A stretch of 64,000 nt of DNA from Methanocaldococcus lauensis (GTDB lineage: Archaea > AGJL01 > Methanococci > Methanococcales > Methanocaldococcaceae): NCBI RefSeq assembly GCF_902827225.1, contig NZ_LR792632.1, positions 1,383,030 to 1,447,029 of the forward strand, given 5' to 3'. Of the stretch, positions 56,593 to 60,444 are shown one piece after another (position 1 is the stretch's first letter; every line of letters begins with the position of its first letter). A program made the translations under genes and the position numbers. Below the pieces are notes generated by a model, which worked only from the letters and a program-made list of their open reading frames with translations, did not search any database and was not told where the DNA came from.

Positions 56593-56679
56593 TTATTTCC
56601 TTGCTATGTTTCTCTAACATTTTCAACAATTTAATTAATCAATCATTATAATTAATTTTACTTTGATTAGGTGATACAA

Positions 56680-59184
56680 ATGGACATGGAAGTTTTAAAA
56701 CAAAAAATTGAAAATTTAGACTTACCAAAGTCAGTAAAAGATGAGTTATTTGAAAAGTTATCTAAGGAAGATTTAGACGATCAAATTATAGATGAAATCA
56801 TTGAGGAAGTTGTTAAGGCATATAAAAAGGCTTTGATAGAACCTTATGAAGCTGTTGGAATTGTTGCCGCTCAATCTATTGGTGAGCCAGGTACTCAGAT
56901 GTCTTTGCCATATGAGGAGAAGATTATAATAAAAGATGGAGAATTTATAAAAGCTGTTGAAATTGGTAAATTAGTGGATAAAATGATTGAAAAATTTGGA
57001 TTTGAGAAAGTTGGAAATAGTGAGGTTTGCGATTTACCAATTGAGATTTATGCTTTAAGTTTAGATCAAGATGAAAAAGTGCATTGGAAGAGAATTATAA
57101 GCTGTATTAGACATAAAAATAATGGAAAATTAATTAAAATAAAAACAAGATCTGGAAGAGAGATTACAGCAACTCCTTACCATTCATTTGTAGTAAGAAG
57201 AGATAATAAAATAGTCCCAATTAAAGGATCTGACTTAAAGATTGGAGATAGAATTCCAGTAGTTAAATATATCCCCGCTAACTGTATTGAAACAATATGT
57301 GTTTCTGAATACATTTTAAATAATAATAGTTTAGACATTCCAAATGAATTATCATTAACTTACGACTTTGGATACTTTATAGGAACTTATTTAGCAAAAG
57401 GTTCAGTATATGATGAATTTATTAAAATATCTTTCATTAACGAGGAAATTTTAAAAAATATAAAACTATTCTTAGATAATGTTGATTTAAAGTATGAAAT
57501 AAACAATAAAGATATTAAAATATATTCACAAGCATTAATAAAGTTATTATTATTAAACTTTGGATATAACTACAAAAAAATCCCTGACTTTGTATTTGGA
57601 GCAAATAAAGATTTTGTTAAAGGATTACTTAGAGGATACTTTGATGTAAATAGTATCATCGATAATAAGGAATTAAAGATATTCTCAAATTCAAAAGAAC
57701 TTATTGATGGATTGGCAATATTGTTATCAAGATTTGGAGTATTTACAATAAAAAATAGAATAAAAGAAAATTATGCATTAACAGTTCCATGTGAATATTT
57801 AAAAATATTTGTTGATAAGATAGGAACAATTAATCAAAAAAGTGCAAAATTAAAAGATATAATAACTAAAACTAAGAAATACAAATCAATAGACATTATT
57901 CCATCATTCGGAAATGCTTTAAGTAAATTAGGAGAAAAAGTTGAATTTCCAAAAATAATATTAAAAAGATATGAAAAGAGGCAAGAAATTGAAAGAAATA
58001 CATTACAAAGATACTTAAATAGAATGAAGGAATTAGGATTAAAGAATGGATTGGATATTTCAACTTTAAAGGAGTATTGGTTATTGAAAAAATCTGTTGA
58101 TAGTGATGTAATTTGGGATGAGATAGTTAAAATTGAAGAAGTAAATTATGATAAAGAGTATGTTTATGACATAAGCGTTGAGGGATTAGAAACATTTACG
58201 ACATTTGATTGTATAATAACTCACAACACTATGAGAACATTCCACTACGCAGGGGTTGCAGAACTTAACGTTACATTAGGTTTGCCAAGAATGATTGAAA
58301 TTGTCGATGCAAGGAAAGAGCCATCAACTCCAATAATGACAATCTATCTAAAAGAGGAGTATAAGAATAATAGAGAAAAAGCGGAAGAGATTGCAAAAGA
58401 TATTGAAAGTATAACCTTAGAAGGAATTGCCGATAGTATAAGTATTGATCTATGGACTCAATCTATAAAAGTTGAATTAGACGAAAATAAATTAGCAGAG
58501 AGAAATCTAACATTGGATGATGTTATTGAGGCAATTAGGAAAAAATTAAAAGTAAAGATTGATGTTGAAGGAACTACACTATATCTAAAGGTAAAGACTC
58601 CTTCAATAAAAGCACTTAGAAAGAGGTTACCAAAAGTTAAAAATATTCAATTAAAAGGAATCCCAGGAATTGAAAGAGTTTTAGTTAAAAAAGAAGGGGA
58701 TGAATATGTTTTATATACTCAGGGTTCAAATTTAAGAGAAGTCTTTAAAATCGAAGGAGTAGATACGAGTAGAACCATAACTAACAATATAATCGAAATC
58801 CAAGAAGTTTTAGGTATTGAAGCAGCAAGAAATGCGATAATTAACGAAATGAAAAAGACCTTAGAACAGCAAGGGTTAGAAGTAGATATAAGACATTTAA
58901 TGATAGTGGCTGACATTATGACTGCTGATGGTGTTGTTAAACCAATAGGTAGGCACGGAGTTGCTGGAGAAAAAGGTTCTGTCCTCGCAAGGGCGGCATT
59001 TGAGGAGACAGTCAAACATCTATATTCTGCCGCAGAGAAGGGAGAAATTGATAAGTTAAAGGGAGTTATTGAAAATGTTATTGTAGGAAAACCAATATAT
59101 ATTGGAACTGGATGTGTAGAATTAGAGATTGATAGAGATTATGAAGAGGGTAAGTATAAAAATAATGAAAGTAATGAAGAGTAA
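56680..59184 (+). CDS. rpoA2: RNA polymerase subunit A'' with intein
   Basis: This precursor of 834 residues gives a mature subunit of about 392 residues after splicing. The first 74 residues end in AQSIGEPGTQM; the intein follows, and the host resumes at TMRTFHYAGVAELNVTLGLP. The GTQM/TMRTF site is in the highly conserved trigger-loop neighbourhood. The remaining host contains IADVMTADGVVKPIGRHGV-type sequence. The ATG at 56680 follows GGTGAT; a second ATG two codons later is possible. Confidence 0.96.
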   Translation: MDMEVLKQKIENLDLPKSVKDELFEKLSKEDLDDQIIDEIIEEVVKAYKKALIEPYEAVGIVAAQSIGEPGTQMSLPYEEKIIIKDGEFIKAVEIGKLVDKMIEKFGFEKVGNSEVCDLPIEIYALSLDQDEKVHWKRIISCIRHKNNGKLIKIKTRSGREITATPYHSFVVRRDNKIVPIKGSDLKIGDRIPVVKYIPANCIETICVSEYILNNNSLDIPNELSLTYDFGYFIGTYLAKGSVYDEFIKISFINEEILKNIKLFLDNVDLKYEINNKDIKIYSQALIKLLLLNFGYNYKKIPDFVFGANKDFVKGLLRGYFDVNSIIDNKELKIFSNSKELIDGLAILLSRFGVFTIKNRIKENYALTVPCEYLKIFVDKIGTINQKSAKLKDIITKTKKYKSIDIIPSFGNALSKLGEKVEFPKIILKRYEKRQEIERNTLQRYLNRMKELGLKNGLDISTLKEYWLLKKSVDSDVIWDEIVKIEEVNYDKEYVYDISVEGLETFTTFDCIITHNTMRTFHYAGVAELNVTLGLPRMIEIVDARKEPSTPIMTIYLKEEYKNNREKAEEIAKDIESITLEGIADSISIDLWTQSIKVELDENKLAERNLTLDDVIEAIRKKLKVKIDVEGTTLYLKVKTPSIKALRKRLPKVKNIQLKGIPGIERVLVKKEGDEYVLYTQGSNLREVFKIEGVDTSRTITNNIIEIQEVLGIEAARNAIINEMKKTLEQQGLEVDIRHLMIVADIMTADGVVKPIGRHGVAGEKGSVLARAAFEETVKHLYSAAEKGEIDKLKGVIENVIVGKPIYIGTGCVELEIDRDYEEGKYKNNESNEE
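56902..58227 (+). other. RpoA'' intein (442 residues), splicing competent, endonuclease acids replaced
   Basis: The intein begins with Ser (SLPYEEKIIIKDG) and ends THN, followed by Thr as the +1 residue. Block B has ATPYHSF (the TxxH motif) and block F has DISVEGLETF, so splicing should work. The central LAGLIDADG endonuclease has FIGTYLAKG, where the catalytic acid is Lys (codon 57397-57399), and LRGYFDVNS, where it is Asn (codon 57649-57651). The homing endonuclease is therefore probably inactive. Confidence 0.92.
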
Positions 59185-59274: not shown

Positions 59275-59331
59275 GGGGATGATGAGACATCGATGTGCTG
59301 AATAAATGATGAGCACGCCCTTCTCTGACCT
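59275..59331 (+). ncRNA. C/D box methylation-guide sRNA (sRNA 3), probable 23S peptidyl-transferase target
   Basis: C box GATGATGA (59278), D' box CTGA (59298), C' box ATGATGA (59306) and D box CTGA (59325) enclose two 12-nt guides, GACATCGATGTG and GCACGCCCTTCT. The first predicts target CACATCGATGTC, which differs by one base from the universal 23S segment CACCUCGAUGUC (E. coli 2496-2507) and would methylate the U equivalent to 2500. The second predicts AGAAGGGCGTGC with methylation at the fifth base, G; I cannot place it. It lies 90 bases after rpoA2. Confidence 0.9.
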
Positions 59332-59479
59332 TTTATATAGTTTAACTCTTCAATTTGCTATTATTTGTTATTCCAAAAAGTATATAAATATAGAGGAACT
59401 ATTATTCGAAAACTAACATTATAAAACATACAGTGATATATTTTAAAAAATTAATTCTATTAGTTATAACCGGTAGGGG

Positions 59480-59562
59480 TTAGGACTTTCGCATACAATG
59501 TCTATTTTAATTTGCGAAAGTCCTAAGAAATCCCTCCGGAGTAAAAAAATGAGAAGGAGGGA
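59480..59562 (+). promoter_or_regulatory. Structured rpl30e leader with SD-hiding helix
   Basis: A perfect 14-bp hairpin (TTAGGACTTTCGCA at 59480-59493, TGCGAAAGTCCTAA at 59513-59526, 19-base loop) is followed by TCCCTCC (59531-59537), which can pair with GGAGGGA (59556-59562), the Shine-Dalgarno of rpl30e. The loop of that second helix is GGAGTAAAAAAATGAGAA, purine-rich. This is the layout of a ribosomal-protein autoregulation site. L30e is a kink-turn binder in other organisms. Confidence 0.6.
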
Positions 59563-59566
59563 AAGT

Positions 59567-59881
59567 ATGGATGTGAATAAAGCAATTAGAACTGCAGTAG
59601 ATACAGGTAAAGTAATTTTAGGTTCAAAAAGAACAATAAAATTCATTAAACACGGAGAAGGTAAGTTGGTAGTAATAGCAGGAAACATTCCAAAGGATTT
59701 AGAAGAAGATGTTAAGTACTACGCTAAATTATCAAACATCCCAGTTTACCAACACAAAATTACATCATTGGAACTGGGAGCAGTTTGTGGGAAACCTTTC
59801 CCAGTTGCTGCTCTTTTGGTTTTAGATGAAGGGCTCTCAAACATTATGGAGCTTGTAGAGAAGAAGGAAGGTGGTGAATAA
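59567..59881 (+). CDS. rpl30e: Ribosomal protein L30e
   Basis: This 104-residue large-subunit protein of the L7Ae/L30e fold has [20 protein letters not shown] and [20 protein letters not shown], with a late [15 protein letters not shown]. The ATG at 59567 follows GGAGGGAAAG. A longer in-frame reading could start in the loop of the leader hairpin, but its 23 extra residues are basic and unlike the family. Its stop overlaps the nusA start by one base (TAATG). The structured leader suggests feedback control by the protein itself. Confidence 0.95.
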
Positions 59882-60444
59882 TGGCTAAGGTAAGATTAAC
59901 AACAGAAGAAATTATGAAAATTGGATTTTTTGAAAAAATTGCTAATGTTCCCATAATCGACTGTGTATTAAATGATGAAAGAGTTGCTTTTATTGTAAAG
60001 GAGGGTGATATTGGAGCGGCAATTGGGAAAGGAGGAGAGAATGTTAAAACAGCAGAAGAGAAATTTGGAAAGAAAGTTGATATTATTGAATACTCAAACG
60101 ATTGGAGAAAGTTTATAAGAAATATATTTGCACCAATACAGTTAGAGGATGTATGGGTTAAGAGAGTTGGAAAGGATGTTGTTGCTTTTATCAAAATAAA
60201 TCCAAAAGTCAGAAGAGCGGTTTTTGGAGAAAAAGGTAAAAACTTAGAAAGAGCTTTAAAGATTTTAAAAAGACACACAAAAATTACAAAAATAAAAGTT
60301 ATTGTAGAAAATCAAAAATTTAAAAGAAAAGGAGTAAGAAAACCAGTAACTAAAGAGCAGCAGCAAGAACAAGCTGAAAAAGAATCAAAGGTTGCTCAAG
60401 AAGCTGAAGCTCAACAGGATGTAAAAGAAACCACTAATGAGTAA
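59881..60444 (+). CDS. nusA: Archaeal NusA-like KH protein
   Basis: This 187-residue protein carries two KH domains, with GAAIGKGGENVKTAEEKFGK near residue 45 and FGEKGKNLERALKI near residue 122. It lacks the S1 and N-terminal domains of bacterial NusA. The tail is Gln/Glu/Lys-rich (EQQQEQAEKESKVAQEAEAQ). It takes part in transcription elongation or termination, and is coupled to rpl30e by a one-base overlap. Confidence 0.95.
   Translation: MAKVRLTTEEIMKIGFFEKIANVPIIDCVLNDERVAFIVKEGDIGAAIGKGGENVKTAEEKFGKKVDIIEYSNDWRKFIRNIFAPIQLEDVWVKRVGKDVVAFIKINPKVRRAVFGEKGKNLERALKILKRHTKITKIKVIVENQKFKRKGVRKPVTKEQQQEQAEKESKVAQEAEAQQDVKETTNE

Follow-up and report, generated by a model that had tools for sequence, protein, structure and literature searches.

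In yeast, the RPL30 pre-mRNA and mRNA carry a kink-turn (k-turn) in their own 5' leader, and the L30 protein, which is orthologous to archaeal L30e, blocks the splicing and the translation of the capped mRNA (PMC3706390, PMC6298567). In eukaryotic ribosomes the k-turn of eL30 is helix 58, and the protein binds both this helix and its own mRNA (PMC3706390). In archaea, the leader of l7ae contains a k-turn beside or including the Shine-Dalgarno (SD) sequence of an L7Ae-family gene, and the bound state occludes the SD, making the element an OFF switch (Daume 2017, PMC5539422; Huang and Lilley 2019, PMC6298567). Autoregulation through a k-turn has thus been described for L30e in yeast and for L7Ae in archaea, and our search of the literature found no published archaeal L30e leader. 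To our knowledge, few feedback loops of archaeal ribosomal proteins have been described. One of them is the L1 operon of Methanococcus vannielii, in which a ribosomal protein represses translation by way of an mRNA element that copies its rRNA site, as is proposed here for rpl30e, although with another protein and another RNA motif.

The rpl30e leader of Methanocaldococcus lauensis probably belongs with the autoregulatory k-turn leaders of the L7Ae family, as a variant. It shares with the l7ae leaders a k-turn that overlaps the SD of an L7Ae-family gene, in this case L30e, but it differs from them in the gene and the probable ligand (L30e), in its core (GGAG/UGAGAA instead of a GAU bulge), which is identical to that of an rRNA k-turn, and in the alternative state: the published free state of the l7ae leader is unstructured, whereas the rpl30e leader has a dedicated rival helix, P1 with its capping hairpin H1, that is predicted to free the SD. 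In contrast to the yeast RNA, one arm of the archaeal k-turn is itself the SD, and we do not claim homology between the two RNAs. The non-bulged strand of the yeast RNA also reads CCGGAGU.

The leader was studied in a stretch of 64,000 nt (the window; GCF_902827225.1, NZ_LR792632.1, 1,383,030-1,447,029, forward strand), to which all positions below refer and in which the features described lie on the plus strand. The local gene order is RNA polymerase B and A subunits, a C/D-type sRNA, rpl30e, nusA, rps12, rps7, and EF-2. The rpl30e gene (eL30, 104 aa; 59567..59881) begins at ATG 59567, and its stop codon overlaps the start codon of nusA (59881..60444) in the sequence TAATG, by which nusA is possibly translationally coupled to rpl30e. 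A predicted promoter TATA element (aaaaagtatataaatat) was found at 59375..59391, and a counterpart, AAA[AG]GTATA[AT]A[AT]A, lies 5' of most of the rpl30e leaders that bear the element described below, in both families of the order. From the usual archaeal spacing, transcription would be expected to start at about 59405-59413 (~59410). The start downstream of 59526 that the earlier note on this DNA had named as evidence against its proposal is therefore not the one expected, since the predicted start lies upstream of H1. The C/D-box sRNA gene (59275-59330) lies between rpoA2 and the rpl30e promoter, and many archaeal sR families in Rfam matched it below threshold; it is kept in relatives, and in one of them (G002, leader L014) it lies directly 5' of rpl30e. 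The rpoA2 open reading frame (56671-59184) looks as if it contains an intein-like insert after SLPYEEKIIIKDGEF, ending ...IITHNTMRTFHYAG.

The earlier note had proposed that TCCCTCC at 59531-59537 pairs over 7 bp with GGAGGGA at 59556-59562 and so masks the SD, and this pairing is present exactly as described. The pattern CCTCCN{10,40}GGAGG occurs once in the 64-kb window, against 0.34 occurrences expected, and folding of 59527-59566 gave z = -3.3, with 0 of 200 shuffles as good. What had been overlooked is that this helix is one arm, the NC stem, of a k-turn, CCUCC-GGA-GUAAAAAAAUGA-GAA-GGAGG. The 5' strand of the NC stem is the anti-SD strand UCCCUCC (59531..59537), recognized from the sequence and in 27 leaders of the order, which is at the same time a strand of P1 and hence the switch strand. 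It is followed by the non-bulged core GGAGU (59538..59542; 3n G, 2n G, 1n A, then GU), of which GGAG is present in 27/27 leaders, and, after the apical loop, by the bulged strand UGA-GAA (59550..59555; L1-L3, then 1b G, 2b A, and 3b A), present as TGAGAA in 27/27 leaders; both core strands match 23S rRNA. The 3' strand of the NC stem (59556..59562) contains the SD, GGAGGG(A) (59556-59561), located 5 nt before ATG 59567. At the sequence level, this is a standard k-turn, with GGA (59538-59540) opposite GAA (59553-59555), UGA (59550-59552) as L1-L3, and a 7-bp NC stem, the core consisting of a G·A and an A·G pair plus 3n G and 3b A. No clear C-helix was found in the leader k-turn, in which the A-rich apical loop (GUAAAAAAA) allows at most one or two weak pairs; in the leaders of G020, G024, and G025 the loop has a single G-C pair. 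Because the C-helix is missing, the leader element appears to be closer to a k-loop than to a full k-turn. A search of 59400-59566 against Rfam gave no match at the gathering score and hits at chance level only.

The core of the leader k-turn has a counterpart in the 23S rRNA of the same genome, where nucleotides about 1612-1643 read CCCGG-GGAGU-GCC-GUAAU-GGC-GAGAA-CCGGG; from their position and the coordinates in H. marismortui we take these nucleotides to be helix 58. The 5+5 internal loop GGAGU/GAGAA of this assigned helix 58 k-turn (Kt-58) is the same, letter for letter, as that of the leader, and its NC stem likewise is GC-rich, with 5 pairs. The two differ in that the rRNA has a real C-helix (GCC/GGC), whereas the leader has the A-rich apical loop. 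When the variable core positions were counted by hand, the assigned site agreed with the leader at 6/6, and other k-turn candidates in 23S rRNA agreed at no more than 3/6; provided that the assignment to helix 58 holds, the leader is therefore closest to the helix 58 site, as would be expected of an rRNA mimic. In most Methanococcaceae the rRNA reads GGAGA-GUU-GUAAU-AAC-GAGAA, so that the upper helix changes from GCC/GGC to GUU/AAC between clades and therefore covaries. Of the 18 genomes in which both loops were read, 15 have the same loop in leader and rRNA, and the three others (G019, G027, and G030) differ by one base each; GGAGA leaders (G014, group g4) occur only where the rRNA that was read has GGAGA. 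The assigned site also fits the 3b·3n = A·G published for Kt-58 of H. marismortui (PMC5061560). It is probably the L30e site in M. lauensis, the contact of eL30 with helix 58 being documented for eukaryotes.

The rpl30e product itself is an ordinary L30e, which matches solved archaeal L30e and eL30 chains. It shares 35% identity with yeast L30 and retains the residues equivalent to yeast K28, N47, and F85. Of these, F85 is reported to make the most prominent contact with the L30 RNA (PMC3706390), and the L30e of S. acidocaldarius was reported to bind and regulate yeast L30 mRNA (PMC5539422).

It could be argued that L7Ae, and not L30e, recognizes the k-turn and acts in trans to repress rpl30e. 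All of the k-turns that the Lilley group analysed folded on L7Ae (PMC6298567), and several mRNAs are targeted by L7Ae (PMC5539422; PMC6298567), which has been reported to repress its own and nop5 mRNAs. Furthermore, the l7ae leaders of the same order follow the same plan, with the SD within the NC stem. However, their core is a different one, GGAU…GAUGAA, so that the two kinds of leader differ at -1n and at L1-L3 (GGAG/UGA in rpl30e and GGAU/GAU in l7ae), and it is the rpl30e core that equals the assigned helix 58 k-turn at all six variable positions. In addition, the element sits on rpl30e itself. We therefore consider control by L7Ae unlikely and favor L30e as the ligand.

Conservation was examined in 36 Methanococcales genomes, 34 of which gave a full rpl30e. 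The pattern GGAG-N(5-8)-TGAGAA-RGAGG, preceded by an SD partner of 4-7 bp, was found in the rpl30e leaders of 27 of these 34, and the k-turn core is kept at rpl30e in both families of the order. All 27 element-bearing leaders have 4 to 7 consecutive NC-stem pairs. A strict pattern, GGAGN{2,12}TGAGAAGGAGG, occurs exactly once, at rpl30e, in 26 of the 27 element-bearing genomes, and in G013, G026, G028, and G031 it matches away from rpl30e only. The element is absent from 7/34 genomes, namely G002 and six of genus group g2, whose leaders are without an SD partner. These element-less genomes (G002, G013, G016, G026, G028, G031, and G033) are about 1.0-1.5 Mb in size, some of them incomplete. In other phyla, where in most cases rpl30e directly adjoins the upstream gene or its leader is short, the element was not seen when leaders were read by eye.

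The GGAG of the core could alternatively be read as the SD of a conserved upstream start, ATG 59549 (MRRR…), giving a longer L30e or a small upstream frame with coupled re-initiation. An ATG follows GGAG shortly in 24/27 leaders, in frame with rpl30e in 15, and the N-terminus of a solved L30e chain (3cpq) extends six residues further. On the other hand, the ATG is out of frame in 9/27 leaders and replaced by CTG in 3/27, in G019 a stop follows directly after MRRR, and the conserved anti-SD CCYCY and the identity with the rRNA k-turn are left unexplained. A longer protein or an upstream open reading frame was rejected on the ground that the frame is not conserved, and a conserved upstream start is, of all the explanations weighed here, the one to which we give the least credence. 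In the interval 59549-59569, the in-frame ATG 59549, located inside the k-turn loop, probably leads to wrong start annotations.

Upstream of the k-turn, the perfect 14-bp stem pointed out previously is exact, with arms at 59480-59493 and 59513-59526 (TTAGGACTTTCGCA/TGCGAAAGTCCTAA). Of the 25 longest inverted repeats listed for the 64-kb window (arms at most 60 nt apart), this hairpin, H1 (59480..59526), alone is 100% complementary. Stacked under it is a second helix, P1 (CCGGUAGGGG/UCCCUCCGG), which had been missed. Its 5' strand, the anti-anti-SD CCGG-U-AGGGG (CCGGTAGGGG; 59470..59479), was found in the minimum-energy fold and in relatives and pairs with UCCCU-CCGG at 59531-59539, U59474 being bulged; the 3' strand of P1 is thus the anti-SD strand plus the next two bases, GG 59538-59539. 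P1 is capped by H1, and its two strands are thereby brought close to each other. P1 and the SD helix have the strand 59531-59537 in common and are therefore mutually exclusive. Folding of 59470-59541 gave z = -8.1, with 0 of 200 shuffles as good, compared with z = +0.9 for the flanking 59405-59469. P1 is the minimum-energy fold of the nascent leader, in which the SD has not yet been made, at 37, 60, and 80 C; at that stage the SD helix is unavailable and P1 alone is possible.

In 10 leaders of the Methanocaldococcus group, P1 is 100% paired and almost invariant, and H1 is paired in 96% of cells, a G-U variant occurring at two pairs and a C-G to U-A change at one. Within the NC stem, C-G, U-G, or U-A occurs as the inner pair, and C-G, U-A, A-U, G-U, or U-G as the sixth. 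The covariation that the earlier note had suggested looking for in both helices is nevertheless weak, because most pairs are invariant: H1 has one two-sided change, and the two two-sided pairs of the SD helix are not above shuffles. With mostly invariant pairs and a weak signal, covariation therefore neither proves nor refutes the helices, and the support comes from the identity of the motif, its location, and the recurrence of a rival hairpin. Among the element-bearing leaders, the upstream hairpins that pair with this same anti-SD strand differ between clades. Whereas the main Methanocaldococcus group has CCGGUAGGG+H1, G023 has GGAGGA-AAAA-UCCUCC, G032 has GAGG-A-CUUC-A-CUGA/UCAG-GAAG-CCUC, and G021 has GAGG…UUUUCC/GGAAAA…CCUC, these being examples among several. 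When pairing of the anti-SD strand was compared with dinucleotide shuffles of the upstream leader, p was 0.01-0.29 per clade representative. The ten representatives combined gave a Fisher p of about 5e-5, which is approximate in that clades are treated as independent; under the same treatment, six Methanococcaceae representatives outside g3 gave a combined p of 0.015, and in several Methanococcaceae taken singly the rival hairpin is marginal.

H1 was considered as a binding site and rejected, because it occurs in one Methanocaldococcus group only and the k-turn is found across the order. A terminator was also rejected, there being no U-run after H1 as judged by eye, and so was a repeated or mobile element, no second copy having been found in the genome.

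The computed energies of the two states are almost the same. For the states with P1 (ON) and with the SD helix (OFF), the energies without protein were -34.7 and -33.0 kcal/mol at 37 C, a difference of 1.7 kcal/mol, -21.7 and -19.2 kcal/mol at 60 C, and -7.7 and -4.3 kcal/mol at 85 C, in a model that takes account neither of non-Watson-Crick pairs nor of any protein. By itself, the NC stem is computed to be near melting at 85 C. This property and the high stability of H1/P1 would also suit an RNA element acting independently of protein, with hairpins that stabilise the 5' end of the mRNA or gate the SD by temperature, but such an element fails to predict that the unpaired GGAG and TGAGAA bases are conserved and identical with those of an rRNA k-turn, or that the core is retained across both families of the order, and we regard it as very improbable.

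Taken together, exclusive helices with a common strand, similar computed energies, rival hairpins in relatives, and a conserved core identical to that of an rRNA k-turn make it likely that the rpl30e leader is a two-state translational switch, with P1 as the ON state and the L30e-bound k-turn as the OFF state. L30e can probably shut off its own production, because the k-turn overlaps the SD and is opposed by a rival hairpin. During transcription, P1 capped by H1 would form first and hold the anti-SD strand, so that the SD would stay free. Free L30e, in excess over its ribosomal site, would bind the k-turn (59531-59562) and move the anti-SD strand onto the SD, and because the NC stem contains the SD, initiation would be blocked; nusA may fall along with rpl30e through the overlapping stop and start codons. 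According to a published rule, metal ions can suffice for the folding of k-turns with 3n = G (PMC6298567); with its 3n = G and its strong NC stem, the leader may for this reason need a rival helix. The earlier idea of an L30e autoregulatory switch thus gains support as to the ligand, from the k-turn, its rRNA-like core, and its order-wide presence at rpl30e, but the mechanism proposed here is a different one, in which H1 caps P1.

A more comprehensive scheme is conceivable, although we hold it with less confidence than the switch itself and consider it slightly less likely than not. In this scheme, the leader is a switch that senses a protein and is built like a riboswitch: the sensor is a copy of the rRNA k-turn, the OFF state is an SD-bearing k-loop, and the ON state is an anti-anti-SD hairpin whose sequence is specific to each clade; within one genome, the leaders of the paralogs L30e and L7Ae would be controlled separately through their distinct cores, and a link to the supply of L30e could extend to NusA and the downstream str operon. 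An archaeal rpl30e k-turn with an rRNA-identical core, if it acts as suggested, would extend self-control by L30e to both domains and would offer a compact system for testing how two paralogs discriminate between similar k-turns. It would also represent a defined, bistable RNA whose helices a ribosomal protein may exchange for one another, in hosts that live where simple hairpins melt.

Some observations concern related elements elsewhere. The Methanococcales l7ae leaders (L065-L094) contain CCUCCGGA…GAUGAAGGAGG k-turns, and many of those in Methanocaldococcus add a hairpin, GGGCAAU…AUUGCCC, with CCUCC in its loop, which is possibly the same two-state design; the l7ae leader of M. lauensis (L076) is of the form without this hairpin. 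Furthermore, k-turn-like SD elements of the type CCGGA…GATGAAGGAGG were found away from l7ae in two genomes (G011:C1:958422-958450 and G022:C1:1528182-1528210).
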